A stretch of 64,000 nucleotides of DNA from positions 16,860,245-16,924,244 of the forward strand of contig CM040761.1 of the NCBI GenBank assembly GCA_022829145.1. The letters run 5' to 3'. Positions 835 to 57,843 of this stretch are shown here, one piece after another. Within the stretch, counting starts at the first letter, position 1, and each line of letters begins with the position of its first letter. Origin of the DNA: Albula goreensis (Eukaryota; Chordata; Actinopteri; Albuliformes; Albulidae). Position numbers and translations under genes: made by a program. The notes under the pieces are model-generated. The model was not told where the DNA came from and did not search any database. It worked only from the letters and a program-made list of their open reading frames with translations.

Positions 835-3800
835 ATGGCTTCACAAAAGGATAAAGGAATTCCCCTAAGTGCGGTGAGTAACGTATTTAGTTACCATGGT
901 GTGCCACTCCTGATAATTTCTTAACATTTTTGTCGGCTTTATTGTTGAACAGTTGGTATTGTGGCCAGTTTGCTAGATAAGAACGGCGTGGATTACCCTG
1001 AGGGGTCTGTTTTGTTAGATAACTGTACCATCAGTTGTGGTATACTTAGCCGTCGGCCAAATAGCTATGCAGTACAGCTGTAGGAATGACGCAGAGGAAG
1101 ACTTTGCTGTTGAAGTCACTGGGAATGTTTCGTGGTTCATTTGCATTTAATATCGGTAACGGTCCGTTGTGCTTTTAAATTTTACTTGCCCTATCGTAGC
1201 TATAGACCAAGTTTAAGTACTTATTTCATGACGTCTGTTTTCAGTCAAATGCCGTTTTATTTGTTCCAGTCTTTCCGTAATGTGAAAAGTTGTTTATTAT
1301 ATGTACAAGAGAAGGAGGTGAATGCTATCGTTTACTCAATGCAGTCGTCAATTTGATTTGAGGTAAACTTCATGAAGTGCGTAAATATTCACTTGAGCGA
1401 ACTGAACTCTCCTTGACGTTGTGGCGTCGGTTTTCACTGCTTTGGAGTACGTTAAAAAGTTCTCATTTGACAAAACTGTAATAAAATAAATGCAATTAAA
1501 TGAACGCTAAATTCTCCATGCTGATTCTTCCTTTGTTTGCTTTGAGTTTTTGCCTTGTACCAAATTTTCAGTATACTCTTTTCGTCCTTGCACAGTTGAA
1601 TCCTAAATTCTTGCACACAAACTCCACCAGCCACACCTGGCCCTTCAGTGCCATCGCTGAGCTTATCGGTGAGTGATCCACGAACTCCTATTAGATTTTT
1701 TTGCAAAGTTTCGATTAATAAGGTTCTATACAAAGGTGTTACACTGTGATATGAAAAATCCAAGTGAGATGTGGTCAGGAAAGAGGCATTGAAGTGCTTC
1801 ATGTAAACAATAGTAAAAGACAATCGCAAGTATTTAATACCTGGTGTACCTGGTGTTTTTTACTCAGAACATTTCATTGTTTTATCTTGTATTTGAATAT
1901 TGCTGTTGTGATAAAAAATGATCCTGGTTTTGAAGGAAATTTGAGTTGAAAATAATTCCTCTGTTGTGAAGCAATTAAGGTTAAATATCTTGCTGAGATA
2001 TTTTTTGATGTTGATTAATGTGATATTTTTAAAAGTCTTTTGGAAACTCTCTTTTATCTTCATTCTGCAAAACATACATCAGTACCATCTGAATTGCTAC
2101 AAATGTCTCAAAGGATATAACTTTATACTATACAGATGTGTGTGAAAAAGACATCAGTACACTGACACTGTAGCTTAGAAATCATCACAAAAATGTGAAT
2201 AAAAAACATTTCCATTTTCTCTTTGACATAGCTTATCAGAAGTATCATTTCCCACATATCCAGTGTGTTCAACAGCCATGAGTTAGCCCACAGGTTTGGT
2301 ATAGAGATTCAGTGCATGTGGATTAAGCTGTTTCTAAACAAGTCTACCACTCCAGTCTTAGCTTGCTTTCTTTTGATGCACAGTGTGCGTATCATGTTCT
2401 TTGGAAAGCACTCTGAGAATGGAATTGAAAGACATTGCAGGAATAAAATGTATTATATTTAGATATGTTGTCTCCTGGGACACAGCACTGAAGTGTTGTA
2501 TTTCAAAGAACTGTATCAACAGAATACATTTACAATGAGAATGAGGCTGGGCTTGACAGACTTTCAGACTTTCTCTGCTACTGATATAGGCCATGGATTT
2601 TATATGTTTTTGCTAGCTTTAACTCACATTTAAACTGGGATTTTTATTTTGTTTTTTAACAAATATAATTTGGTGATTTCAGTATTCACCAGTATCCTAG
2701 TACACACAGAACAAATATGACAGGATTCCAAGAAGTATCTAAGCTGCTCTGAATGCAGTTACTTGTTGATATATTGCTGGCTGGCCCCTACACAGACATA
2801 TATAGGTGGTAAACACATACTTCTTGTAACCATCCGATTTTTCTTCTAGATAATGCCTATGACCCAGATGTCCGGGCCAAGCAATTTTGGATTGACTGGA
2901 CACGGATAAATGGCCGGGACTGCCTCACATTCATGGACAACGGTGCTGGGATGACCCGGAACAGAATGCATAAGATGCTGAGGTCAGCCGCTTTGCCTCT
3001 GCAGCACAGAGATCAAAATCACAGAACATATAACAAAATCACAGAACATGGAACAAAATCACAGAACATATAACAAAATCACAGAACATGGAACAAAATC
3101 ACAGAACATATAACAAAATCACAGAACATGGAACAAAATCACAGAACATGAAACAAAATCACAGAACATATAACAAAATCACAGAACATGGAACAAAATC
3201 ACAGAACATATAACAAAATCACAGAACATGGAACAAAATCACAGAACATGAAACAAAATCACAGAACATATAACAAAATCACAGAACATGGAACAAAATC
3301 ACAGTCACTGAGAAAGCTCTTTTTCTGTGATGCAGACCTTGTTGATATGTAGCATATATATACTCAAATACAGAATGAACACATTTACATGAACGAACTG
3401 TTGCATGTGCAGTGCATATAACTAGTTCTGTACAAGCTGACTGATATGAATGTGAAGGCTAAGTTTACAATATGTAAATACATAGCTATTTATTTTCATT
3501 GACTTATTTCACAACAAACTGCAACTCCTTTTGTTTTCTCTCAATATGATTTTGATGTCACAGTGGTTCATTCTGTCGCAAATCTACAGTAGAGAATGGT
3601 AGGCAAGCATTGAACAGCTGATTAAAAGCAGAGTATTGTGGATTAGTTCACAAAAACTCCAGTATTGCCCTCCTGGCCCCACAATGTCTGTTTTGTGGTG
3701 TCTGTGAGATATCGGACCATTCTCTTCAGCCAGTTTGGAGAATTTACATTTATTGCCTCCTGACCTTAACCACCCTTCATACATGAAGGTGTCTGGAGGG

Positions 3801-5809
3801 GACAAGGCAATAATGACCTCCTTATGGTCATGGCAATGTAAACAGATTTAAGACCTGAAGTGTAGGCCAGTAACCACTGTTCTCATAGGTTAAAGGTCAA
3901 AGGTTGAAGTTTTAGCCTTTGTCACAAATAAATAAAACATTGACAATACAGAGAAGTCACAATGGAAAATGTAGATATAAACTTGCCATAAGTGGCACAT
4001 ACAAGCTGCGTGTGGTGAATCAGTGGCAATGGCTACCTGCACATCATCAGGCTTAGGGCAGAAGGTCCAAAGTTGACTCCTAAAGGATCAAGGGAGGCTT
4101 TCAACATAATTCATAATATTTGCACTATCCACTCAGAAAAAAGCACACTTTGTTGTAAATTAGTTTTGGGACTTTAGGGGACTTCAGTAGCTGAGCTTCA
4201 GACTGCAGACCCTGCATCAGTCCCAAATAAACGTTCTGTTTGCGAAGAGGCCAGAAGTTTAAGATCAGGACTATTAGGGCTGGTGAAGTCCAGTAGTCAG
4301 TTTGTAAAATTGGAGTATAACATAGTCATACACATCCAGGCTTTGCTATTTCTTTAAGTGGACACAAATGCTGTAGAAGCTGTTGTATGTCCTTGGTTAT
4401 TTTAAACAGATATAAGTGTGGTGGTTTTTACATTTACATGGTGTGAAATGTTTTGTGGTGAGTTTATTGGGTCATTGGTTGAATTCTTCAATTGTGGTAT
4501 ATACAGCATATTGGATACATGCCAATTGAGCTGAATGGATAACTCATGTTCAAGATTATATTGCCCACACAAATGGGTGATGATAAGCAGATAAATGAAA
4601 ACCTTTTTGCAAACTTTTCTTACTAGAATATTAGGAATTGCCAATTTCACAATATTGCATAAGAAGTAAATAACAGTCCATTCAGAAGGTAGGCGTGTTG
4701 TAAATTTTGATCAGATTGAATCTAGGGCAGTGCATTTAGGTGGATTGAGTGTTCATTGACTTGAAGGATGTATCACCTCTCCCTTAGGGCATTGTGAGCA
4801 AAGTAAAATTCAAAGCTCAAAGGAATAATCCAAACTCTACATCCAAGTTAATATGATACTGTAACTAATCTACCCCCATTCACTGTCTCTCTCTCTCTCC
4901 CTGTTTCTTCCCCAATCAGCTTTGGCTTCAGTGATAAGCACACAGTTAAAGGCCATGTGCCGGTGGGTCTGTATGGAAATGGTTTCAAGTCTGGATCCAT
5001 GCGTCTGGGAAAGGATGCCATTGTATTCTCCAAGACTCGGGACACCATGAGCGTGGGACTGTTATCCCAGTCATATCTGGCCACTGTTCGAGCTCAGCAT
5101 GTGATAGTGCCCATCGTTACCTTCAGACGCTACGGACAGAACCAGTATCCTTCTTAGGTGAACACTAGAAAGCCGTAGCCAGTGGATTGATAGACTAATA
5201 GCATTAATTAACAAAAATCATCAGTTTAAAAAAATCAACAGATTTAACTACCCTTGTTGATGACTAGGACTCCCTAGAGGGCCATAGTATCTGCAGGTTT
5301 TCGGTAAGTTTCAGCACTTGCGATTAAATAAGTTAGGTTGACAGTGTCCACTCTAGTTGCTCCCCAATACTAATTTTCTTCCCTAACCTGGACTCACTCA
5401 TCTCTGTTGTATGGGTGGTTTGTAGTGTGGAAAATAGTTGTTGTCTTATGATGGCAATAGAAATATCACCAAAGTGAGTGAAGTCAGCAGAATACTCCCA
5501 GAGACCCAGTAGTGCTCTTTAATGCCACTTTGTGTCAGCACAGTTGTGTTTTTAAAAGGCAACAGCACAAGGGTTTGGACACCAGCTTAGCAGTTGACCA
5601 ATAACCTTGACCTCAGACCTCACTCAGGGTTGAGGGAGCCGCGAGCCTGCAGGCCATTCTCAAACACTCCCTCTTCAAAACAGAGAGGGATCTGTTCTCT
5701 GAGCTCCGTGTCATCAATGCCACAGGCACCACCGGGACCCGCATCATCATCTGGAACCTCCGGAGGTGCGTTTTTCAACACACAGCCTGTGTGTGTGTGC
5801 TGGTGCAAA

Positions 5810-5861
<52 letters not shown>

Positions 5862-8800
5862 TGGGAAGCATGGGATGAGTTAAACTGGATCTTTGCATGT
5901 GAGCGTTTCATATTATTTTCTGCCTGTTTGTTGGTTTCCCTTTTGTCAAATGTATGAGGGTTGGATATGGGTATATACATAATGCATGTGAAGTGCATGT
6001 TGGGATGTTTTCTTCCCCTTCAGCAGACAACAACTTCAGATCCCCATTCACCTTTGATTAACCACAGGAGCTTCCTCAGCCAAATGAATCTGAAGTTTGC
6101 GTAGTTATTTTGGTTGCGTCTATTATTATTAAACTGATATGGCTGAGAGCTGAAGGTTCTCCAGCCAAAGTTTGGGTTTGCCCCACATTGCCCATAATCA
6201 GCAAGTACTTTTTCATGACTGAAGGATGGAGCTTTGTATGGACCAGGCTGAAAGGGGGTTCCTCCTTTGGCTGAGTGAACAGTGCATACATCATTTTAAT
6301 GTTTCGACCAGACCTTCAGACAGTGTGCATGTTTGTGTGTATTTTATAAGGTGTTAGTAAGGGCCCTTGAGAGTAGTTTTATTATGTACTATATAGTGTA
6401 GATGCATATGCACTCGACAGGAGAAGTGGAAAATATCAGATCATTGCCCATATATATATATATGTGTGTGCATGTGTGTGTGTGCGCATGAGTGTAGGAA
6501 TTGGAAAAATCAGTTTGTTAGGCGATTGAAATGCTCAGAAAAACATCTGTCTCTTGGCATGGCAGAACAACAAACGGGGAGACAGAATTTGACTTCAGCA
6601 CAGACAGGTATGACATTCAGATCCGGGCTGATATGTTGGAGGCCCACGGAGCGAAACACAAGCAGCTGGGTCGGAACTCGGACTTGATTCCCGAGAGCGA
6701 GTACTCGCTGAGGGTGAGCACTGTGGGAAATGGAACATGTGTGTTTCCCTTCGCTAGGGAGGAAGTGTGCCAAACCTAGCTTAAGTAGTCACTGCAAAGC
6801 AGCAGTGCTAACAACACAATCAAATAAATCTTTACTTCATCAGTATATATAGTTACACTTGATGTTTTTATACTACATTGTGTTAAATCATTAAAAGTAG
6901 AAAGGCTGTTTTTTTGTCTGTAACTTGTTTTCCAGGCATACTGCAGCATTCTGTACCTGAAGCCCCGCATGCAGATTATCATCCGGGGACAAAAAGTGAG
7001 GGCTCAACTGATCTCAAAAAGTCTGGCCTATATCGCCAATGACAACTACAGACCTGCCTTCCTTGTATCCTTCTTTCTGATGCGCAGAATTTCCACTTGT
7101 CTAGATTCCATTGTGTTTCAGCCTATTGTGTTCTAATAATTTTTTTATCCAGAGTGTTTGTCTGCCTGTCTGTCTGTCCCTCTTTGAGTTTCCTTAATGA
7201 ATTTTAGAGCAAGCGCATCCGTATAACCTTTGGGTACAACACAAAAAGCAAGGAGCAGTATGGCATAATGATGTACCACAGAAACCGGCTCATAAAAGCT
7301 TATGAGCGGGTGGGCTGCCAGCGTAAGGTGAGAAGAGCTGAAATTCATCTCTGTTTTCTCTAATACCTTCCTGTATGTCCATTTACATAAAAAGGGGGAC
7401 AGTTACAGATCGTCTGTACTACACTTTCAGTCATATGAATGTTATTGAAATGTAACATAAAACAAGCTGCCTATGTTAACTGAAGCACCAGACATGACAT
7501 GATAGCCGACTGCTCTGTTATATATTGAAACCTTCTTACCTAGGTAATGTGCCATGTACAAGACTTTAGAATAGCATTTGCCTCACAATTTATTACATTT
7601 ATTATATTTCTACGCTTTTTAAGTGTTGAGCTGTTGCAATAAATTGGGGCTTCCAATATAGCGACTGAGCTCCCCTCCCATATTCCTCCTTTTATTGATT
7701 CCTTGCATAGATTTTTACATTCCATAAGTCATAACTCCTTTCTTGAACGTCTGTACAGGCTGACAGCAGAGGTGTGGGAGTTATTGGTGTCATCGAATGC
7801 AGTTTCTTGCAGCCAACGCACAACAAACAGGATTTTGACAACACCGATAAGTACAGGTAATTAGTCACATGTGTAATGTGTATATTAATCAACGGCACTT
7901 GGTGAGCTGTGCTTTGAACGCTAAGAGAGTCACATTACAGTCAAAGAACAACACAGAAAACAATGTGTGTGTGTGTATGCATATAAATATCCCATTGAAA
8001 CCTTGACATTTATAATGCATAATGCCATTTGTTGTGTCCAGGAAAACCATGCACAACCTGGGTGTTAAGCTGGAGGAGTACTGGAATGAAATCCGATACA
8101 AGCGCAAGAAGGAGGACCCGAAGTGCACTACACCCATAGAGGATGCCGTGTGAGTAGTCCTGAATATTAAAATAGAATATTGCCCTTTTAGAATAGTAGC
8201 CACTAGCCAGTAAACAGGACAATAAAGAATGACAACTTGAGAACATTGTACTGACAAATACAGGCCAACTGTATCTGTGCCTAAAATAACTATTAAAAGC
8301 AAATATACAGGAATAAAAATAAACATACATATGGTAAGTAAATGGTAAATAAATACAAATATAAATCTACATGTCAGATAGCAAAGAAATCAAATATAGA
8401 ATCTAATAACATACATAGCAACACAACTGGCATAAAAGCAAGACTTGCAGGTTGGGTCCTTGAATGAACCTCGGTTCTCTTGATTGCACTTCAAATCCTG
8501 GTGAGCTTATTCCATTAGTAACTCACTATTTCCTCCTAAGGCCAGTGTGAAGTCTTCTGTGTGCGCCCTCTAGGTATTTGTGTTGTAGACCACGTCCAGC
8601 CAGATGTGCATCCTGTGTTTGACCTGTGTTTTTCCCCTTGGAGCTCAGGAAGTTTCCGGATCAAAGCTGGGTCCAGTGTGATGCCTGCCTGAAATGGAGG
8701 AGGCTTCCGGATGGCATTGACTGCGACCTGCTGCCCGACAAGTGGTTCTGCCAGATGAACCCAGACCCCCAGTTCAGGTGACTGGCATGAAGGGCAGAAA

Positions 8801-11800: not shown

Positions 11801-14800
11801 GGTTGTTTATTCTGTGGTCTGGACAGTACAACATGCTGAGAATGTATGAGGTAAAGATACTGAAGGAGATGGAGATTTCCAAGGAGCTGATCGAGGTGCA
11901 GATGGGGTTATATAAAGACATAAGATGCTGTTTGCACTGCATTTACCATCATTATTGAAGTCTCTGTTTGGAGAAAAAGAAAACTTCTGATAAAGACTGG
12001 GTATGAAAAAGCAATTTTCAGGAAATGGTATGAGCAGAAATTGTAGATACCAATTTTTATAAAATTTTGTGTCAGTTCCCCCTTGAAAAAGTGATTTAAA
12101 CCTTAGTTGGGGTCTACATGGTCAAATAGAGTATAAATAAATACATAAAATAGATAACACACTTTGTGGCTGTGTTTTATCAGGGTGAAACGAAAGCTGG
12201 CTGCCCGTGCTCCTGTGGAATCATCTGCGGGGTCCTTTGCTATGGCAACTGCTGCCTCGCCATCACCCAGGCCAGCAGCATCCATCAGGGGCCAGACAGA
12301 CCGCAAACCCTTGGTCAGGGGGGTGGAGAGGAAAGGACAGGTGGAGACAGAGGCAAAGAGGGAAAGTGCAGGGGTGAGGGCTGAGGAGGTGGAGAGATGG
12401 GGTTGGACATGGAGGGGGCTCCCTGGCCAGAAGAGGAATGGGATGATGGGCAGGCCATGCTGGAGGGGTCTGAAACCACCAAGGATGGAGTGAAGGCCGC
12501 AGCAATGGAGGCGGAGAGTGAGGAAGAGGAGGGACAAGAGAAGAAGGAGCAGTGGCTCCTGCTGGAGGAGCAGCAAGAGCAGCAGGACCGGCTCTTGGAG
12601 CTGATGGAGGCGGCTTCGCAGGAAAGGGACCGGTGCAGGGAGCAGGTGCAGCAGCTCCAGCAGGAAGTGGAAGAGCTGAAGACCAGGTGTGCCACCCTTG
12701 AGTCCAGAAGGAGGGAGAGCTCGCAGCTCAGCAGGAGGGTGAGTTCAACCCGAAGTGGCAGCGTTGAGTAGTCCAGAAGGAATTGGGCATGTCCCAGGTC
12801 AGAGGATGCAGGCGGCAGGCTCAAATCCCAGATGGGCCTTAATTATCAACTTACTTGCTCCTGGATTATATCCAGCTATATGAATACATAATGTGTAATA
12901 AATAGAAGTAAACTATGTGATATACCCTATGCCTGGGCATCTTTAAAGGTAAAAATTAAAAAAGAAGGTTTGCAATCAATCAAGCTATTGGCTGTTTTCC
13001 ACATTATCCAATACAGGTAGCTTCCCATCATATTTTAGTAATGAGATGACAGGTTTATCTCCGATTTTTGGGATAAAGGGTTATGTCAGTCTCCTGTGTC
13101 CTCTGCTCAGCTGGAGAGTGTGGAGGCAGAGAGAGGCAGTCTCTCCTCTCAGTGTGAGCAGCTGAAGAGAGAGCTGGAGGATCTAAGGAGAGAGGCTCAG
13201 GACAGAGCAAGTGAAGACTACAGGTACAGTTTGAGCGAGCATGAGCACTAGCATTATTCAGGACTGTGTTCTTGTCTGAACCTCAGATCTTGAAGTCATG
13301 CACATCTCCACCATGTCTGCTAAAGATCTCTTTGGAGTTGCCTGGCTCTTACAAGTCTTTCAGATCAATGGTGCATTTTCATAGGGGAAAAAAAAGTATA
13401 GCAATCAAACATAGTCACATTTTCATTCCGCCTTTTTTAGCATTATATGTACCAAAGGAATCCTAAGCAGTTCTCACTAACAAACCCATGTATATATCAT
13501 GAGCATTTTGCAATACTTTGAACCTGAAACAACCTTATGATTAAGTCAGGGCTATCATTAGTGCCATCAGAAATTAGTCACTCACTACTAACCGGTAAGT
13601 CCATCCTCCCAGAACAAGGAAGTTTCTGTATCTGATCATCCTGTGATGGAAATTTGTATTACTCATATATGAAATATGCTTTTTATATGAATTATTGATC
13701 ACTAGTCATTAACCTGAATTATCCATATACATGCGCTGAACTACTAATTTGTATTGGTCACACACATGATTTTCCTTATATTCATACGTTATTCAGCATT
13801 ATAAATCACTGTTCTGTGTTCACTGTTCACAGATTCTGCATGCCTGTTTAAACTATGCTAAAAGGCTTTTGCTTGTGTAAAGTAATTAAGATATAAATTC
13901 AGGCCTGGTGTCCTTGAGTGAAAGAAGTCTAGTGCCAATTGGTTCTACAACTGTCTGTGTGTGTGTGTGTGTGTGTCCACACCCATTCAGGCTGCTATTA
14001 ACCCCTGACCTTCCACTGAGTATACAAATGTATGCTGGTGCTATTAACCTGTTACAAGTAATTATCTAATATCCATGTATTGATATACACTGGTGTTATT
14101 ATGCTGTACATTTATTTACCTATAATTCCATACACTGTGCATTCTGTTTTAAAATCATGTAATCCTTTGTTTGTGAGAATGTAAGCTGGTGGGAAAATAC
14201 TAGACAAGAAGCATCTCTGACCCTTATCATATGTGCCGACCTTGAGTGGTGGAGCTTGGCTCTTCTTCCTTTGTAACTTTTGAACACAATCCACATTTGT
14301 TATTATTAGCCATGTAGAAGCTGTAACCCCTAGCAACAGGTGGCAGATATATTTTAGGTGAAAAAGTTATGCACGGATGATTCCCCTGGACCAATTAGAG
14401 AAGGGTAAACTAACGATGCCTCGCCCAGACTTTGACTGTATAATAAGAGTACTGTCCACTATATTCTTTGGACAAAGCTGGTGCATTGCTGAATGTACTG
14501 CTTCTCCAATATTGCAATATTAAACAAGAAAAAGACAGCTTTTCTGCTCTCCATTATTTAAAGACATTTTTGCCAAGACAATCCCATGCAGTAATCATCT
14601 CCAATTATCTTCTAATTACCATAAAAAGGTGTGGTCACTGTGCCAGACAGGGAAAACACAGAGAACTGGATTAAGGAGAACAAAATAGCCAGAAGCTGTT
14701 TACTTGAACATTAAACTTCAACTTCACTCTCTCCACCAGGCTGAGCAACCTGCGCCGGAGTATTGGTCGCCTCCTGGTGACCTTTGTGCCTGCGCTGGAC

Positions 14801-19000: not shown

Positions 19001-22000
19001 ATTTCAGTGTTTGGTGCACCATAAATAATAATAATAATAAAAAATATTTTTTGGTCTAATGCCAATAATTTTTGTGCTGTGTAGGTGCCAGTAATGGGGA
19101 ATAATGATATGGCAGGTCTCAATGTAATGCACATAGGAGTGAAATGATTGATGATATATAGTGGCTTTAGCCACTGTGGCAGTTGGTGAGTGAAAGGTAA
19201 TGACATTGAGAACCAAATGAACAAAACCAAAATTGCATCAACTGTAAAATTGCATCACTGCAAACTTTATTTTATTAAAAACAACCAATCAAAATTTAAA
19301 AAGTTCACGCCCAGATAAAACCAGGCACAACTATGCAGGGGAGCCACAAACTACCTAAATATACAGTGCACTGCAGAGGGTCATACAGGTTTAGACAGAT
19401 TTGTGAAGTAGAATTTCTCATAATTCTCATTTTATTGAGGTGTCATGGAGTAGCATTGCCTGTGACAGCCCATATTCATCACTGTGCTCCTAGACAATGC
19501 CTATGACCCGGACGTCAGCGCCAAGCAGCTCTGGATCGACAGAACACAGGTCAAGGACGTTGAATGCCTGGTTTTCATGGACAATGGAACAGGGATGGAA
19601 TATGATAAAATGCACAAGATGCTGAGGTTAGTGAAGGCCTGCAAGGTCTGAAGTTGAAGTCAGAGAAGACGAATATTACTTCCGCTGTTTGGCACATTTA
19701 GTCCTTGTGACTTTTTTTGTTTTGGTTGGAGTTGCTGATTTATCCTAATAACGCATTTATTTTTAGGGGTGTGTCTGTAGAATCTTTTTCATAACCTCCG
19801 ACTGTTCACTGCTGAACTGTCAATCTGACCCTTTTTCCCCTTTGTGTATCCTTTCAGCTTTGGGTACAGTGAAAAGAAGGCAGTTAAAAGCCATGTCCCT
19901 GTGGGTTATTATGGAAATGGGTTCAAGTCGGGCTCCATGCGTCTTGGGAAAGATGTCATTGTGTTCTCCAAACACAAGAACTCCATGACTGTGGGGCTCC
20001 TGTCACGCTCATACCTGGAAGCCATTCAGGCTCAGCATGTGATGGTACCCATCGTCACATTCAGTCAAGCCGGAGGGGACAAATATATCCTTTCCTAGTG
20101 AGAAAAAAAACATAAACAGGCCACCCAGTGTTCCCCTTACATCTGATTACCTAAACAGTTTTGATTTGTGTTCTCCAACTCATCACTGCGAGTGAGAATT
20201 GAGAATATAGGTTGACCAACCTGTTTAATTAGTGATAAAGAAGTAGGTGTTAGACCTGCGCAGTCCTGTTCGGTCCTCCTTGACCTGTAACCCTACTCAG
20301 TGCTGTGGCGGCGCATGAGGACAGCCTGAAGGTCATCCTGGAGCACTCACCATTTAGAACAGAGGCGGAGCTGCTCTGCGAGTTGGAGGCCATCAATGCC
20401 ACCCATCCCAAGGGCTCCACAGGTACCCGAATCATCATATGGAACCTACACAGGTACGCCTTAGCAAGCACACATTTCCTTTAACAGGTATGCATATGCT
20501 TCAAGCTTGGTATTTATCATTGACATAACAGCAGTTTTTGTAATGCTAAATTATGCTTTGTTAGTCCCAGTGGGTTATGTCACCTCGACCATGGCATGAA
20601 AATATAATAGACATGCATTTCATACTTTAGCTTTTGGTAAAAGTTCTTCCAGATACTGATGAAAATGCTGAAAAAACTAGACACTAATAGTGGTTCACTC
20701 ACTAAAATCTGTTTGGCATTATTAATGAACAAATAAGTAATTTGGACATTTGGTTTCACATCAGCTCACATCATTTCTGTCCTCACTCAGCACCTCCAGA
20801 GGACAGTCAGAATTCGATTTTGAAACTGATAGGTATGACATTCGGATTCCGCGTATAAACTGGTCTGACGTCCAGGGTGGTCTGGACCCCATCTTGGAAT
20901 CAGACCCAAAGAGCACCTACTCCTTGCGTGTGAGTATATTGACTGTTTGGGGGGCTGAAGGGACAAAGTGGTTGGGCAGTTAGCTGGGGTAGTTCTGGGC
21001 CGTTGGCAGGTGGGTGATGGGTCAACATCTGAGCATCTAAGAGAATGTGAATTTCACATTGCCCTGCCATTCTGACAGCTAAGACCAAAGCATTTCCTTT
21101 ATTGTGAATTTATCATTTTTTATGTGAATGGTATTACTTGTTTTCAAAGTGAGAGGGGAGGACAGAAATGATCCAAGAGATGCTTTCAGATGCTTCCATT
21201 GTAATGTGTTTAACTTCCATGGAAATTTTGTTTGTTTTAAATCAAGAGATCAACTTTGAGAACACCTTGTCAGATATCAGCTCGTCAGTGTGACCGCTCT
21301 TCTAAACCACATTAAAGGGAATAGACACACAGAATTAGCTAGCAGTGGCTATTATTATCTGCAGCTCCATACATGTAGATCAAATTTCATTCCTCACCTG
21401 GACTCTAGTTTACTGTAGTACAGAAGCATATACTTTCCTTGCAGCCTGCAGCAGCTCTGCCCAGTAAGACAATGAGGTTTTACTGGCATCTAATCAACAC
21501 TGTTATGTGGGAACAGTGGTGTTCTCTACCTGTCATTGGGAAAAGATCAAAGGGCAAGAGTCTCATATGCTAAAACATTTGTCTCCACCCTGTTAGTAAA
21601 CTGTGGTATGTTTATGGTGGTGTGCTGTGGGTGAGCCACATATAGATTCTCAAATAAAGCTTATTCAAACATCAAAGGGCTTTAGTTTCATGAGCTGAAA
21701 AGTGATAACGAAATGTAAAAGTGTTACTGAAAGCGATATTACACATTATCTTTCTTTATTAGTCTTTGGGGAGTTTTTCTCCCTAGGCTTTTAATTTTTA
21801 TTCTTTGTATGGACTCAGGCATACTGCAGCATTCTATACCTGAGACCTCGGATGCAGATAAACATCAGGGGATTGAAAGTGAGGACTCAACTGATCTCAA
21901 AAAGTCTGGCCCACACCTTCAAAGACCGATACACACCAAAATTCCTGGTATCCTTCTGTCATAGCCTAACATGATATGTGGTGTTTACTGTGTAATGGTT

Positions 22001-25000
22001 GTGTATAAGCCTGATTTGACTGTAAGTACAGTGGGCTCAGAGACCGATGCAAATTGTTTGTATACAATGACAATGCACACAGATACCTAGTAAATGTGAC
22101 CCAGTTGGCCATTTTTCATTTGAAGTTTTTATGTGCCAAACTTAGGTTTTATTGTTAAGAGTCTTGCAGCTAAGACAGATATAGTTATATTCGGAATGTA
22201 ACCAGTATGACTTCAATGTAATGAAGGAGGTCTAAGGTGAAGACAAGAGCGAATTACACAGTTTACATTTCTACACACTATCCATTTATACAGCTAGCTA
22301 TTTGACCAAAGTAATAGCATTAGCTGATGAAAAGCTGTACAGTAAAGGTTTTTCTCTACTACTGAGCCAATATCGAATCCTGATAGATTAGAGATGGCTG
22401 GTTGATTGCAACACAGCCAGCAATGTGCCAAAGTTGGCCCTTTGTGGTGACGACTGAAATTATGTGTATGGTACTCCCTTATCTCTCTAAAAGCAATTTG
22501 AAATGATCGATTTTGGTTGGTGTCTCAGCCTAGTATGAAATCTCATGTGATTGTGATTCTTCTGGAGGAAGTTGCCCAGACAGCAGGAAACCTGCCTGAA
22601 ATCATCAAACTAGTTGAGTTTACAATCATGACAAAATTTCAGTCTGCATGTACAACAATTTCTTGAGCATTACAGAGAAAGACTAAAATTGTAGTTGCAA
22701 CCATGTACAGTCCCTTAACGGTTTATATTAAAATGACACCATTATGAAACATTGCACTCAGTTATATTCCACTACATATGCAAATTATCACACAGCAGCA
22801 TGGTGACGTACTGAAACATTTGAAGAGATGAGACATTTAAAGAGCAGCCATATTTGCTAAATTTGTCCTCAAAGCCATGGATACCCCAACACCTTTGATT
22901 GTGTTAACATGGCAGTGGTGCTCAATGCAAGATTTCTCACTCATCGCATATGAAACTTGTCTCTGTCACAGTGGACTGGCATATTCCACATACAGACCAA
23001 CTTCCTTTGGTGATGCATTTATCGAGTTGGTTGAAATAAAGTCAAGGAACTTGTTTTAAGCCTCCAGGATGTTTTTCTGCCTTTTGGCGTTGTTGTCCTC
23101 AACTCTTTTTACAGAAGAAGCATATCTCCATAACGTTTGGGTACAATAAGAAAAACAAGGAGCAGTATGGCATAATGATGTACCACAAAAAACGCCTGAT
23201 TCGCGCCTACGAGCACGTTGGCTGCCAGCTAAAGGTGAGAAACCCTGAACTTGTTTTTTCTTTGGTGAATTTAATTGAAGCAGTTGGAAAAGTTGTACAT
23301 TTTAGTGCTTCATAGTGTCCAATTGTAATTGATTTTTATCAGTTTGCTGATACATCCCACTCTCTTTTTCTCGACAGGAACGGGTGTAGGAATAATTGGT
23401 GTCATAGAGTGCAACTTTCTTCAACCAACACACAACAAACAGGACTTTAATGACACAGAGGAGTACAGGTAATTGGGCCCTGCTTTATCTTAAGTCTGAT
23501 TTTGTAGATGGCTAAGTATTTGATAGAGCAGGTTTTCATTTGTCTATTCTGTTAGACATATGAAAGTAGTCTTTTACAAGATCACAAAAAAAGTTCAATT
23601 TCTAGTTGTAATCTTCATCTTTAGGAAAATAAAAGTCAACCTTGGGACAAAACTGGAGGAATATTGGAAAGAAATTCGCTATAAAAAAAGGAAAGATGAT
23701 CCCAACTGCAGCACGGCTATCGAGGACACAGAGTGAGTACTATGAATGAGATGTTTTTTTTTTTTTTAAACTTTACACTTTGTCAGTGGTGTAAGGGAGG
23801 TGCTAAACCGAAGATTCAAGCCTACAACCATCTGTAAATAGACAGCTATATCTCTGGCTTTAGGAGGACTCCGGATCAGAACTGGGTCCAGTGTGTCACA
23901 TGCCAGAAGTGGAGGAAGCTTCCAGATGGAATTGATGCCAAAAAGCTTCCTGAAGCGTGGTTCTGCCAAATGAACCCAGACCCCCAATACAGGTGATGCC
24001 TAGTCTCCCATTATTACTATAGGTGTTGGAACATTATACCATTACACCCATCATACCATTCCAAAATTGTATTTGCATAGGAACTCAGGTGGAGAGTTTT
24101 TATGAGTCATTTGTCGGTTACTGGGTTCTTCTAGGACCTGTTGCTTTGTAAATTCTTGATAGTAAATTTTATACCCCGCAGGACCTGCCAAGCAGAAGAA
24201 GAGCTGGAGGATTCAGAAGACGAGCAGCCCTTCCAGAGGACCTATAAACAACAGTAAGAGCATAAGTTCTTATCTGTTTTGCATTTTTCCACCATGACTT
24301 TGGAACTAACAATTGACTCACTTAAGTTTGTAGGAACCTTCATTGATAAAAAAATTGCCCCCCTACATTTCTTCAAATTGCATATCTTTTAAAAACTTAG
24401 AAATACCTCTTCAAGGTTAAATGCTTCATGAGATCCTGCGTTTAATTAACTTACTCTTATGCCAATCACACAATAAGTGCAGAACATGGTATGTGCAGTC
24501 CTGTGCTACATTGGCCACACTGTCTATTTTTCCACCATAAGTCATATAGTGTAACTACCTCAGAACAAATGGCGATCAGGGGCTGAGCACATTTCCCATT
24601 TCCAGAGGCTAGCAACTAACAGTTTCTTGGTGAGTTGCTAGGAAGTGCTAATACTGTAGAGACCAGAGAAATGCTGGTTGACGAAAGCCCAACCCTCCCA
24701 TAGTGAGTCAAAGCCAACTTCCCACTGTAGACCCTCATTTATACCTGGCTAAAGTGAAATCATCATCCTAGACTCTCCCAGGGCTATAAGGCCTGTATAT
24801 GGGCTCAAGATCCCACAGGAGTTTGCATGCTTAATCTGCCATATAGATTTCAGATGAGTATTATTTTTTTTATTTATTGATTTTCTTCCGACAGGGAGAA
24901 GAACATGAAGCTGCAGGAGAGGAACAGACGGCAGGTGGGTGGTTTGTGTGTTTGTGCGCTCATCAAACTAATCCCCTGCAGTGACAGGCATTCTGACTGA

Positions 25001-43522: not shown

Positions 43523-44552
43523 GTAAGTTATTGGAGGGACAGCGGCAGCAAGCGAGACTTGCTGGTGTGAGAAAATTTGCTTTTCCTTAAGATTAAATTG
43601 CTATGTCTGGTGGCAAGGTGGCTAGGGTGACAGTGCACTGTTAGGATACATTGTTTCCGTTCGCCTTTTCAGAAATAATCGTAGACAGTAGTTGCTAATG
43701 GTTTATTTTTCCATGCAGCTTTTTGCATGACACCCTAGTTGGAGCATCCGGGGTGGACTTACTCTTCAATTTGCATCATGGTTTCAGCAATATCTTACCC
43801 ATTTTAATAGTTAACAAGCCAACATCTTCACACGTTATTGCTTCCTATCTTCCTAGCTTGTTAAATAAACTTTTTCTTTTTATAAACTACACTAAAACAG
43901 TCTAGTTCACATAGGTAACAACGTATTTCAAATTGTGTGAAATTCGCAAGTTGTGAATTCTGTTACATTGTATTAGTGGATAACGTCATAACAACATTTA
44001 AGCTGTATTCGTAGAGAATGTATCCAGAGTGCAAGTTGGCTGCTCAAAAGATAATTTTTTATTAACGCTGGGAACAATTAGCTGTTATGATAGTGATTGG
44101 CTTAGACGTTAAAATGTTCGGCTGGATTGCCTTTGAGATTTGGCAATAGAAAGCTTTTAGAAATCATCTTACCTTGGCTACATAGGCGAAGCAATAAATG
44201 AAACACATTTACCAGTGTTCTGCTTACAACTTCCCAAATACCGTAGCAGTGGGGTATTTTCATCTGTTAAGATTAATTAAACGCTAGGTAGTTAATTATA
44301 CTCATACGGTGTCGTGGTAAAATAAAGTTTCATATCTGAACTGTAACATTGCCCGAATCCGAAAAGTTTTTGGAGGACTGACGTCCCAGACTACGTCCCG
44401 GACGGGTAGGCTTCAGAGTGTGGCAACGCACATCACTTTGATTACTAGGATTGGTTTGTAAAAGGCTTCAACTAGAACATTTACTGACCAGAGGGCTAAG
44501 GAAAACGGAAATAAACAAAACAAAGCCCCTGTAAACAGGAAAGCCGGTGAAA

Positions 44553-46894
44553 ATGGCCGGCGACTGCATCTACAACCCACACTACGCTAATGATGACACT
44601 TTTGGAAACAAACATTTGTTGGGTAAAAAACAGGAACTTGCCCGGGATTTCAATGTCCTCGATGCAATGAAGGGCAATGCATCGACGTCAGTGGCGGCTT
44701 CTTCGCCCTATTTCGAAATAATAGACGGGGTGCTGTATCGTAAAAAGTTGGAAAAGGGATACACAAATTACAGAGAGGTGTTAGACAAGGACAGGCGACA
44801 GAACGCGATCGCCACGTTCCATCTGAAGGGAAAGGGACACCACACCTTGGAGGACACCTACAGATTCGTAGCAGAAAACTACTGGTGGGAAGGTAGGTAT
44901 TGGCGATGCTGGTTTACGACTGTCCGAACCATAAACACCCCAAATCGTGTAGGCTTAGAGCATCGTTCCTTGTGAACCAAGTGCGCTGCTACAGACAGGG
45001 TCCAGTACATGCAAGGAAAATAGCCCGCCCTGCCCTATGCTCTTCCCTATCAATGTCAGTGCTAGCTATCCGGTTAGCTTGCCGGCTAACTTGCATTTTA
45101 TGATTGTATATCGTCTGCTGTCATGAAAGTTAACATTGTGTTTGAACGCAGTGCCACCTGTTTCCGTGTAGCATTTTCTCTTAAGCTCGCCAGTGATATG
45201 CTTTTTCCCAGTTAGCAGGAACCTGCAAACAAATGTGTAACTCCGCTTCATGGTCCATAGGCTATGCGACCTCTATGCTATACATGTGCAAAGCTTTTCT
45301 TGCCTAGATCTCCCTGCCCAATTGAATATTGTAGGAAACGTAGTGGAACTCGGATTCCGTACTAAGCTGCTGTTCTGAAAAGGCTTTGAGCGTTCGTAGA
45401 AATAAATATTGAATGAAATGCAGAATTATGCTTGAGGGCCGCCTACACTCTGGTGCTGAGGAAATGTTATGCATATTAGCTAATATCATGGAAATATTAT
45501 ATGGGGTATTTCTTATGTATGCTATTCTTTCCTTATATAAGCTGCTTCTTTTGTATGTAGAATGTCTATGTGCATTAAGCAGGTTCAATTTTAAATGTTA
45601 TTTATTTTACGTGTATTTAGTCAGTATGTATGCAAAGTTCCATGGATTGAGTTGGGGAATACGCATTTTCAAATTCTTGGAAGAATTTGCTCATCTACCT
45701 CAAGAAGCAAAACACTGGTCTGCGTAGTGTGCGCTTGCTGCGTTTGATTGGGAAAAACCTCGTTTTAGCTCCGGTTTAATTAGTTGCGTGAAAAGCACTG
45801 GCAACATCTAACAGTGGCTAGCTGGTGACACCGCCGTAAGTTATGAACTAAACACAATTCTCCCTTGTCACAATTATGAATCACAGACTGTTTAGCTAAA
45901 ACTGAATTAAAGGCAGATTTTCCTTGGACCACAGTAACGAAGAACAAGATCAGAGGTATTCGCTTTTATTGTTGCCTCTGATAAGAGGGGTAATGGGAGA
46001 CAGTGCATGTAGCCTAATGTTTCGACTGTCCGGCAGAGACATATACGAGGATAAAAAGTTACTGGGTCCACATTGGAGGGTTCCCAACTCAGAAAATGTC
46101 TTGGGCATGCGCTCTTCGTGTTTTTATAATTGAAGATTAAGATGAAAGTGTTCAGGAATGGAAACAATTTGGTGAGAAATGAAGCTCTATTTCACTTTTT
46201 GTGTATGGGAGGGGGGCACACTATTGTATTTGGAGGAATGCTGCTTAATGTTGAATAACCTGCATCTGTCTCTTGCCAATTCCTGTATTTGATCTTGACT
46301 TGATCTTCTCCTGTGTCTACTTTATCTGTCCACTATATCGTTTTGAGAAAAGGCAGTTCATGCATACTACATACTGCTTCCACTCCTTCACTGGAAAACA
46401 GTGTGCAACTGCTTCACCACATACCCAAAAATTAATAACTTCAATATGATTTCAGTGCATTTCTTTGATTGGGTTAAATGGGTGCATAGTTTTATTTCAT
46501 AGCCAGACAGCACACAGAGCACAGAATACCCTTTGGTTTTGTCTAGTCTTTACTAGAGGCCAGTAATCAGCAGCCAAAAAAAACAGCAGTTTGAAACGGC
46601 ATAGGTTTTCATATGTGCATGTGAGCTTCCTGAGTGGCGGCCACTACCAGACAGATTTCATTTAGGATGGTCACCTGCTAGTGAAATTAAGGATGGTGCC
46701 GACTGCTGTCAATTGGGAATGCTCTGTACTCATCTGGTTTATAGTCTCTGCGCCAGCACAGATGAAATCACATCCTATGGTGAGGGTGGTAAACTGATGG
46801 TCCGCTGTGTTGTCTCTCTTCAGGAATGTACTTCCACATCCGCGAGTATGTCCTGGGATGCCAGGAGTGCCAAGCGCAGCAGGAGAGAAAGAAG
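44553..46894 (+). other. Integrase-type H2C2 zinc-binding region (exons 1-2 of BTB gene)
   Basis: The translated pair of exons contains YFEIIDGVLYRKKL, then H-x5-HH at FHLKGKGHH, LEDTYRFVAENYWWEGMYFH and C-x2-C at GCQECQ. Spacing and the YWW-G core match the N-terminal HHCC domain of Ty3/gypsy integrases and of the host proteins GIN1 and ZBTB11. The intron falls at WWE-G, phase 1. Confidence 0.8.
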
Positions 46895-49800: not shown

Positions 49801-52800
49801 ATTGAATTGAGGTAACAAGACATGCCCATGAATATAATTGGAATTTGTGGGGAAAAAAGGGAAGATAATGTAAAGAAAATGTAATAATGGTGTGGAAGTC
49901 TGGCATCAGATAGCCACAGTACCCCAATTGCCAATACATGCCAGTGCTTGTTATGTTGTGTGTAGCCTTGTACCTCATTACCACACATGCCCAGGAAGTA
50001 CCTCATTATCTATAAGATGAAGTCCATGCAGGTCAGGGCAATAATCCCCCTTTCTCTCCTGCAGGCTTCAGTGAAGAGATCTTCCTTCCCTTGTTGGAAT
50101 TCTCCTACACCTCCACCCTGTCCCTCCGGGCTGAGGACCTGGGTGAGGTGTCCACCATGGCACGCCACTTCCGCATGTGGGCCGCGGTTGAGGCCTGCAG
50201 GGACATCCAGAGCGAGCAGCGGAGTGGGCGTGGCCGGGGTGGAGCCACCGCCAACAATCTGAGAAGCACAAACTGCCCGCCACCCTTCTCAGTCTCCCCG
50301 CAGCTTGCGAATGGCCAGCAGTACCGTCCCATGGGAGCGGGGGGAGTCCACGGGAAGAGGAAACGGGACAGGAGTGTTCTGGAGGAAGAGCCTGCCGGGC
50401 CACACCGGAAGCGCCTTCCGCCACCAGCAACCCGTGAGCGCATCACACATGAAAGCCTGAAGCCGTCCGAGGGTGTGGGAAGGCCGCCCACCCGGTCACT
50501 GACCAGATGCCTGCCACAGGGGGAGAACGGACTTCCTCTTAGCCCCACCCGCCGGCTGAAGCTGATGGACTTCAAATCTCCATCCAGTAAAGTCAAATTG
50601 CCCCCTGCCCCCCGTGCTCCGTCCTCCTCTGCCCCAGCAGCACCAGTTTCCCCCCAGGCTCACCGGCAGCCCACCCGGGTCCTGCGATCAGGCACCATGG
50701 CCCCCCAAGTGCGGCAACCCAAAGAAGTGGGGTCTTTGGAGAGGAAAGCATTGAAAGTCCCTGCCCTTAACTCCACCCCCACCCCTAGCTCCACCCCCTC
50801 CTCCAGTAGATGTAAGCAGAGGCTGAGCTTCCCAGAGGCAGGGCCAGGGGCGGGGCTGGGGATCAGCATGGTAAAGGAGGAGCCGGTGGAGGAGGAAGTG
50901 CAGAGCTCCAGCATGCTGGAGAAGTACAGGCTGCTTAGCGTGCTTGGCCTGCAGCGGAAGTCCCTGCTCCCAGATCCTGTGCAGCTAACCGGCTGGCGGC
51001 AGAAGAAGCGCCTGCGCAAGCTGAAGGTCAGTAGCTACTCGCTGACTGCCCGCCGCAAGCCCCGCCTTGCCAGGCCGGTCATCTCCCCCAGCGACACCAG
51101 GGACGCTGCAGTCCTTCCACTGAGACAAATCAAGGTGGAACCCCCTGAGCCTGTGGCTGTGGAGGAGGTGAGACTGAAGAGAGGCCCCGGTCGTGGCAGG
51201 AGCACCAGTGGGGCAGTGGAGCCACAAGAGCGACGGGAGCTGAGGCGTTCAGTCAGGATCCGCGACGCCCCCCCGCTTGGTCTGCCCCGTCTCCGTGCCA
51301 GGAAGGCAGAGACAGGGTCCCGTATACTGAGGAGGAAGCATGTCCGAGTCAAGAGGGAGCCTGCCACCTTTGCCATCACTCCACCTGTTCTCCCTTCATG
51401 CAGTACACTTGGCCTTCACCAGGGGGAACCCTTCCTCTCCCTTAGAGCTAGGGGCTCCATCCCTGACAGCAGCCCACCAAGCAAGTCATCGGCAAGGGTT
51501 GGCAGGAGAGCCAAGTATAACAGCACCCGGCCAGGTAAAGCAGCAAAGCGGGACCGTGCCAGTGTTGCCAAGAGGGCAGATGTGAACCTGGGCAGGATGT
51601 GCGTAGAGCTGGCAGCTATGCCCCCTTGTGGCAGGAGACCAGCACTGCCCTGAGCGGCATTAGGAACCATGGCAGCTGCAGCAGCAGTGCTGACGCTCAT
51701 CTCCACACCCTGCGGATGGCTATCAAAGATGAGCCAGCAGACCCTGTACCCGTGACCACCCCCATCGCCATGACGATGGAGCTGGGCAAGCGTCGGAGCA
51801 AACCCCCGATCAAGCTGCTGGACCCTGGCTTCCTGTTTGATTTTGGAGGCGTGAAGAGAGAGGAGGAGAGCGTGGACATCTGCCTGACCCGCTCTGTGTC
51901 GCAGGGCCCTGGGCGGCCTCGCCGGGCTGCTCTGGGGACTGGGGCCCCACACAGGTTCGACAGGGAACAGCCACGACTCAGAGGTGTGGTCTCCGGGCCC
52001 ATGCCAAAGAAGAGGGTCACAACCCGTCTGCGTGGAGGCGGAGGGGCACAGGGTGGTCCTCACAGACCCTGCCCGGCCAATTCAGGGAAGCCAAAGGCTG
52101 TAGGGAATCTACCAAAGGTATGGCAGCTCAGCTTTTGAAAAATGTTTATTTGTTTTTCAAGTTACAAATTTAATATACTTGGGAGGGAAAGGTCAGAAAA
52201 ATTGGGACAAATTGTATGAAAATCTTCCATGTGGAATGGACAAATTCCTTAATGGCAAAATAAAACAAAAAACACAGGAATACTGAAAAAATAAGAATGT
52301 CTGGCCATTTAATTGCTTTGTAGTTATTGTCATTCAGTTCATCCAGGCGCTCGTTAGAAGTGAATATATCCCATTGGAACACATGTGGAACATCTTAAAT
52401 ACTCTGCACAATTAATGAATAATTACTAGTAATGGCTCAAACTATGAAGAAGCTTTTTCTATAGTGAATTTTCACCAAGAACCTACATCAGGAAAATATC
52501 ATCTGTTTCTATTGTTACGCATCTGCATCCTCCTTCATTCTCTCAGGTGTGTTGGTCATGGGCGTGGCAGATCGTTCCCCTGTTAGTAGAGGTTGAACAC
52601 AATGAGAGAGATGAGCGTCAGGAAAGTTCTCATCCATAGATAAGGGGTGTTTTCTGGCATGGTTTTCAGCCTCTGATGGCTGATTTAGGAGGCGTTGAAT
52701 GGGCCCTTATCTCACTCTGGTGTCGGGTGGGCTGTGGAGTTGAGTTACGTTGAGCCTTGGCCCATGCTGATAGCTGCTGTATCAGATCCAGACGTCGCTG

Positions 52801-57750: not shown

Positions 57751-57843
57751 TGAACGTGTTTTATTTAACTGCTCCTTGCTCAATCTTCCATAAGCAGCAC
57801 TCTCCTCTTGGTAGAAGATACTGTGCTCTTATTGCTGTAGAAC

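Follow-up and report, generated by a model that had tools for sequence, protein, structure and literature searches.

A likely one-step switch from AT-AC to GT-AG in a U12-type intron of tandem MORC3 genes in Albula goreensis

Minor (U12-type) introns occur in a rare AT-AC and a commoner GT-AG subtype, and changes from the first to the second are known. In the switches described by Burge, Padgett and Sharp (1998; cited here via PMC2831892 and PMC3584512), the place of the intron and its U12 signals are kept, and the terminal dinucleotides are changed. According to the extracts of these papers used here, U12DB holds 36 clusters in which both subtypes are present (PMC2831892), and a change of subtype from AT-AC to GT-AG is a rare event, perhaps owing to poor splicing of the intermediates. 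The mixed pairs AT-AG and GT-AC are disfavoured, and the optimal distance from the branch site to the intron end is 11–13 nt (PMC3584512). In human cells, GT-AG minor sites outcompete AT-AC sites directly, and AT-AC introns lean more on CENATAC, as stated in an extract of PMC8280824. A second group of related systems is formed by the vertebrate twintrons, in which U12 and U2 signals lie at one place, mutually shifted, with the U12 signals the older (PMC3564746).

Herein, a window of 64,000 nt of the Albula goreensis genome (GCA_022829145.1, CM040761.1:16,860,245-16,924,244, forward strand) was analysed. It carries a tandem MORC3 gene pair on the + strand, whose members start at 835 (copy 1) and 16049 (copy 2). 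Homologous introns of both U12 subtypes are found at one place in these genes, and the direction of the change can be read from four paralogues within this one genome. The locus is thus likely to represent a real minor-intron subtype switch with a direction and a one-step mechanism. Subtype switching itself is known; a route by one deletion that makes use of an exonic G is the variant here. Such a one-step deletion route was not found in the extracts consulted from the literature on MORC3, U12-type introns, subtype switching and twintrons.

Two subtypes at one intron position

The positions of exons 1–11 in both MORC3 copies were set by visual inspection and confirmed by translation. The Pfam domains HATPase_c_3, Morc6_S5 and zf-CW were identified in copy 1, and copy 2 is matched best, among solved structures, by human MORC3 (6o1e, E 7.1e-126). 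Copy 1 thus combines a GHKL ATPase, an S5 domain and a CW zinc finger, and the genes group with MORC3 and not with MORC4. Over exons 1–8, the two proteins are identical at 220/331 residues; NG86 values of dN 0.24 and dS 1.03 over the same exons indicate coding constraint in both copies.

Further members of the family were sought by using 258 residues of copy 2 as a query against the genome of this fish. The 22 matches comprise five exons each in copy 1, copy 2, contig C5 and contig C25, plus two weak matches on C4 that look MORC2-like. The genome therefore holds four MORC3-like genes, namely copy 1, copy 2 and the genes on C5 (locus L031) and C25 (L032), and no separate MORC4-like gene was present among the 22 protein matches. 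In a midpoint-rooted tree of six rows (the four fish copies, human MORC3 and human MORC4), the fish copies cluster next to human MORC3 (100/99). Copy 2 and C25 are paired in this tree (96/95), and copy 1 and C5, whose proteins are the most similar (345/433 identical), fork without resolution as sisters. The pairing given by NG86 dS over 351 nt disagrees with the protein tree: C5-C25 0.62, copy 1-copy 2 0.72, copy 2-C25 0.83, and 1.05–1.09 for the other three pairs, with copy 1-C5 at 1.09. Gene conversion between the tandem copies, or base composition, could be the cause of this conflict. The MORC2-like gene on C4 (L033) was also tried as an outgroup and set aside, as no U12 donor scoring ≥9 was found in the 9.9 kb covered and visual inspection did not locate the exon that follows EVII.

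The features around intron 4 of the two tandem copies are as follows.

4920..5144, + strand: copy 1 exon 4, 225 nt, ending AAC CA (phase 2)
5145..5627, + strand: copy 1 intron 4, U12-type GT-AG, 483 nt, probably the derived state; donor 14.3, branch site 8.6, branch A to AG 17 nt
5158..5163, + strand: GTGAAC from +14 of copy 1 intron 4, a U2-like donor out of frame (TAG)
5605..5611, + strand: copy 1 U12 branch-site core CCTTGAC
5622..5627, + strand: copy 1 ACTCAG, with AC 13 nt and AG 17 nt from branch A
5628..5765, + strand: copy 1 exon 5
19858..20084, + strand: copy 2 exon 4, 227 nt, ending AAA T (phase 1)
20085..20296, + strand: copy 2 intron 4, U12-type AT-AC, 212 nt, probably the ancestral state; donor 13.6, branch site 12.9, branch A to AC 13 nt
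20098..20103, + strand: GTGAGA from +14 of copy 2 intron 4, a U2-like donor that joins AG 20300 in frame
20278..20284, + strand: copy 2 U12 branch-site core CCTTGAC
20295..20300, + strand: copy 2 ACTCAG, AC end for the U12 intron and AG end for a possible U2 intron
20297..20453, + strand: copy 2 exon 5, counted from the AC end

In copy 1 the intron (phase 2) starts with GTATCCTTCT, and its borders read CAGAACCA/GTATCCTTCTTAG...CACTCAG/GGTTGAG, where slashes mark the splice borders. In copy 2 the intron (phase 1) starts with ATATCCTTT, with borders GACAAAT/ATATCCTTTCCTAG...CCCTAC/TCAGTGC; the intron itself thus runs ATATCCTTTC...CCCTAC and is followed by TCAG. Scored with U12 matrices built from the consensus, so that all scores are approximate, the donors reach 14.3 in copy 1 and 13.6 in copy 2, against ≤ -3.5 in 16/16 U2 control introns of both genes. 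A sequence-only reading of the window had proposed that intron 4 is a U12 intron of different subtype in the two copies; these scores, together with the shared core CCTTGAC at the same place, support this. By its sequence signals, copy 2 fits the AT-AC class, as its ATATCCTTT is a donor of the ATATCCTT type and its branch site CTCCTTGAC, close to TCCTTAAC, lies 13 nt from the AC, within the 11–13 nt of the class. Copy 1 fits the GT-AG class, with a GTATCCTT donor and an in-frame AG at 5627; its branch site AACCTTGAC falls outside the 11–13 nt range, at 17 nt from the AG, that range being an optimum and no limit.

On the + strand, strong U12 donors exceed the chance expectation. Scores of ≥13 were obtained at five sites on the + strand and one on the - strand, compared with a mean of 1.15 per strand after Markov shuffling (n=20), and four of the five + strand sites begin introns 4 and 7 in copies 1 and 2. 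The fifth, GTATCCTTTCAG at 19846-19857 (U12 score 15.6), lies where copy 2 intron 3 ends, overlapping the 3' splice site, and opens no intron in the gene models. A scan of the genome with a gapped U12 pattern was also attempted. It returned 25 scattered matches, none of them in the window, with 12 and 8 in reversed controls vs 13 and 12, and it was dropped because the pattern was too loose and used CCTTAAC, whereas these introns have CCTTGAC.

The possible splice ends were surveyed by combining every scoring donor with each AG or AC end that leaves exons 4 and 5 in frame. Three such pairs exist in copy 1, all with the donor at 5145, joined to AC 5618, AG 5627 or AG 5645. The sequence-only reading had held that only the AG end works in copy 1 and that an AC end would meet TGA; this is correct for AC 5622-5623, but the AC at 5617-5618, 8 nt from branch A, preserves the frame. 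Copy 2 yields seven in-frame pairs, of which two are plausible: AT 20085 joined to AC 20296, and AG 20300 reached from the U2-like GTGAGA at 20098. The remainder use unlikely ends (e.g., 1 nt from branch A) or a donor at 20045 within exon 4. With the AT donor, AC 20295-20296 is in frame and AG 20299-20300 is not, as had been claimed, but the further claim that only an AC end keeps the frame in copy 2 goes too far, since CTA/GTGAGA from 20098 to AG 20300 is also open and in frame. This GT-AG pair touches the very point that the sequence-only reading had named as speaking against itself. The AT-AC assignment of copy 2 is not overturned, because the GTGAGA donor is outscored by each of the 18 U2 donors in the two genes, but the pair has to be reckoned with.

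Direction and likely route of the switch

The two further paralogues supply the direction. In C5 the borders of intron 4 read AAC CAG T/ATATCCTTCT...CTCCTTGACCTTTGACCTTAC/TCAG/GGCACTG, and in C25 they read GAC AAG T/ATATCCTTTT...CTCCTTGACCTCTGACCTCAC/TCAG/TGCGATG, the second slash on the 3' side marking the AG. Both introns are phase 1 and of the AT-AC subtype; the AC of their ACTCAG end lies 13 nt from branch A, and the frame is open over the junction. Their AT donors score 12.3 (C5) and 13.6 (C25), and the branch site is CTCCTTGAC in both. Exon 4 is 2 nt shorter in copy 1, at 225 nt, than in the other three paralogues, where it measures 227 nt. Across the genome, intron 4 is therefore AT-AC in 3/4 MORC3 paralogues and GT-AG in 1/4, and CCTTGACC and ACTCAG, at the same spacing, are common to 4/4 copies. 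As AT-AC in phase 1 is the state of three of the four copies, it is taken to be ancestral, with copy 1 as the copy that changed; a single change there is enough whatever the tree, so the polarity holds irrespective of which copies pair. The opposite polarity, with GT-AG ancestral in fish and AT-AC arisen in the other copies, is very improbable even though the comparison covers one genome, since at least two changes in the disfavoured direction would be needed on any four-copy tree and human MORC3 is listed with an AT-AC minor intron in an extract of PMC8280824.

The human gene offers a further point of comparison. The legend of Fig. 5A of PMC8280824 names minor introns of both subtypes, AT-AC and GT-AG, for Morc3, without intron numbers in the extract available, and exons 4-5 of primate MORC3 served as an assay for a U12-type intron (PMC10098413, likewise from an extract). 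By our own reading of the primers in the latter paper as EHVVVP and KKGTRII, they appear to flank the same place in human MORC3.

We consider it probable, on the strength of these comparisons, that an old AT-AC U12 intron in phase 1 was kept in copy 2 and became a U12 GT-AG intron in phase 2 in copy 1, likely through the loss of one TA. From the observed motifs, frames, exon lengths and states of the four paralogues, we infer the mutation and its order as follows. The border of C5, GGACACAACCAGT/ATATCCTTCT, differs from that of copy 1, GGACAGAACCA/GTATCCTTCT, by one TA unit, and exon 4 of C25 likewise ends AAGT/ATATCC. Loss of the TA unit at the exon-intron border would have converted CAGT/ATATCC into CA/GTATCC, so that an exonic G would now precede an intact TATCCTT, creating a GT donor and shortening exon 4 by 2 nt. 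A U12 intron that starts with G is expected to pair with AG and not with AC. The AG 4 nt beyond the AC in ACTCAG would then have been used, removing 4 nt from exon 5. The total loss would amount to 6 nt, or two codons, with the frame kept; in the letters of C5, AAC CAG TTC AGG GCA would become AAC CAG GCA. As ACTCAG is equidistant from CCTTGAC in all four copies, the AG predates the switch. The two apparent border moves would thus be explained most simply by one 2-nt deletion and an AG already present. This bears on the phase change that the sequence-only reading had reported and attributed to a movement of both borders after duplication: the phases, 2 in copy 1 and 1 in copy 2, are as reported, and the movement applies to copy 1 alone, as copy 2 keeps the old borders.

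Several observations temper this reconstruction. The deletion was placed by hand, since the MAFFT gaps fell at the alignment ends. Copy 1 and C5 do not come out as sisters in the tree and dS is lower for copy 1-copy 2, so that the sister border behind the deletion reading is not firm. Exon 5 of copy 1 carries an additional 6-nt gap relative to the other copies, which indicates that the copy 1 border has been altered more than once. The junction falls within a segment whose length varies. Furthermore, the AG of copy 1 lies 17 nt from branch A, beyond the 11–13 nt optimum, its branch site scores 8.6 vs 12.9 in copy 2, and the AC end 8 nt from branch A is in frame as well. Such a distance and the lower branch-site score may be the price of the switch.

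Compared with known subtype switches, the G of copy 1 would derive from the exon by a 2-nt deletion and not from an A to G change, the intron would slide by 2 nt, and the phase would become 2 instead of 1 without loss of the frame. The path suggested for copy 1 would avoid an AT-AG or GT-AC intermediate as well as a frameshift. A parallel is found in LKB1/STK11, where the Peutz-Jeghers mutation IVS2+1A>G turns the start of an AT-AC minor intron into GT, as at the start of copy 1 intron 4. In LKB1/STK11 the outcome is cryptic splicing and disease (PMC8329584, cited from an extract), whereas in copy 1 an AG lies 4 nt beyond the AC and would be in frame after the deletion. A small deletion that shifts the donor onto an exonic G, with an in-phase AG just beyond the AC, may thus be a path for subtype switching. 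This path can be searched for by machine, as AT-AC introns preceded by an exonic GT and with an ACNNAG end. The tandem copies might also differ in splicing efficiency and in their dependence on CENATAC.

A possible twintron and other alternatives

The alternative that fares best is that intron 4 of copy 2 is removed, perhaps in addition, by the major spliceosome, from CTA/GTGAGA at +14 to AG 20300, with a product longer by three residues. Together with the AT-AC ends, this would form a shifted twintron, an arrangement that accounts for a third of the twintrons reported in human (PMC3564746). The U2-like pair is open and in frame in both copy 2 and C25, in phase 2 in each. GT donors at +14 are present in copy 1 (GTGAAC, 5.8), copy 2 (GTGAGA, 5.4) and C25 (GTGAGG, 6.5), and GT sites scoring ≥5 occupy 276/63,980 window positions. 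From +14 to +18, copy 2 and C25 agree at 5/5 positions and copy 1 agrees with each at 4/5, compared with 0–1/4 from +10 to +13 and 13–18/60 from +24 to +83 over six pairs. This five-base agreement is less striking than independent chance would make it, because the copies are homologous, with third codon positions 56–64% alike. The pyrimidine content at the 3' end is 0.70 in copy 2 and 0.78 in both C5 and C25 vs 0.57 in copy 1, with a random 95th percentile of 0.68; however, the 16 U2 introns span 0.49–0.86, so that copy 1 is not clearly different.

The remaining evidence weighs against removal by the major spliceosome. The copy 2 donor scores 5.4 with a textbook matrix and 3.2 with a window matrix, under all 18 U2 donors (minimum 6.5; 5.0 leave-one-out). 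C5 lacks a +14 donor altogether; a 41-bp minisatellite of 7.4 copies (L031:3834-4135) starts there, exactly at +14. In addition, MORC3 is absent from the table of 18 human twintrons (PMC3564746). A twintron in intron 4 is possible, and removal of the copy 2 intron by the major spliceosome is a suggestion to be held tentatively. Intron 4 would resemble the described vertebrate twintrons in having U12 signals and putative U2 signals at one place, mutually shifted, with the U12 form apparently the older, and would differ from them in that its two 3' ends lie 4 nt apart in ACTCAG.

A bolder extension, doubtful on the same evidence, would make intron 4 a conserved twintron of fish MORC3, with AT-AC as the minor form and +14 GTGAG to AG as the major form. 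Use of the major form would have kept the AG in phase, and the TA loss in copy 1 would have switched the minor form onto that AG, leaving a stop in the U2 form; in copy 1 as assembled, the +14 GT joined to the AG end is out of frame and meets a stop. If this were true, the twintron would be a bridge for the subtype switch. Twintrons have been proposed as bridges for switching of intron type, and no clear evidence for this was found (PMC3564746).

Returning to the TA loss favoured above, two other accounts of the copy 1 border were weighed. A stepwise switch, in which A changed to G at +1 and a separate indel of 1 nt or more in exon 4 later restored the frame, selection having been relaxed by the duplication, is unlikely. 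The cryptic splicing and disease that follow the first-base A>G change in LKB1/STK11 (PMC8329584, from the same extract) illustrate a cost of the direct path that a spare gene could bear. Against this, at least two events are needed where a single one would account for the TA unit and the loss of 2 nt from the exon, and both copies are under the coding constraint given above.

A still less probable account is that the GT of copy 1 is an assembly error, the true sequence being CAGTATATCC where CAGTATCC was assembled, so that 4/4 copies would be ordinary AT-AC. Addition of the two bases restores an AT-AC frame in copy 1 as in the paralogues, and three apparent 1-nt frameshifts occur in coding exons of the window, at the start of copy 2 exon 9, in the copy 1 long exon 12182-12739 and in the long exon of a BTB gene. 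These may reflect several broken genes or small assembly indels; should the latter hold, the assembly might also lack two bases at the border of copy 1. A 2-nt loss outside a homopolymer is a different kind of error, however, and copy 1 as assembled is in frame through the AG, for which a random 2-nt loss would need luck. Copy 1 has drifted also in its branch site, its pyrimidine stretch and its +14 site. Genome matches to the exon are the four paralogues in 4/4 cases, which leaves no second copy in the assembly for checking.

Intron 7 and other features of the window

Each tandem copy contains a second U12 intron, which the sequence-only reading did not mention.

7065..7207, + strand: copy 1 intron 7, U12-type GT-AG, phase 0
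21948..23114, + strand: copy 2 intron 7, U12-type GT-AG, phase 0

Intron 7 is U12 GT-AG in copy 1, copy 2 and C25, with a donor score of 14.3 (GTATCCTT) and branch sites of 11.7, 8.5 and 9.6, respectively. In C5 (L031:6233-6548), its donor GTATGCCT scores 2.2 as U12 and 6.5 as U2, the 3' end is pyrimidine-rich, and no U12 branch site was found within the intron. This matches the conversion of U12 to U2 introns by a C to G change at +5 (described in an extract of PMC2831892), an ordinary case and separate from the switch in intron 4. As judged from these sequence scores, one family in one genome contains both a subtype switch and a U12-to-U2 change, in different introns and different copies.

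Several minor observations concern the rest of the window. Short tandem repeats of the aacaaaatcacagaacat kind were noted by eye in copy 1 intron 3, at about 3010-3304. For copy 2 exon 9 (23378-23400), no in-frame join to exon 8 was found among the GT-AG sites inspected and one base appears to be missing near GAACGGG, as in a pseudogene or an assembly indel; the copy 1 long exon at 12182-12739 contains one frame change. Downstream lies a BTB-domain zinc-finger gene with BTB exons at 47304 and 50016, whose long exon (50016-52138) seems to shift frame near its middle. A weak Pfam match to Integrase_H2C2 at 44535-44972 (E 0.0036, under the cut-off) is probably an old retroelement piece, and cystatin-like exons are present at 57841-59087 (Pfam Cystatin, E 0.0069, under the curated cut-off).
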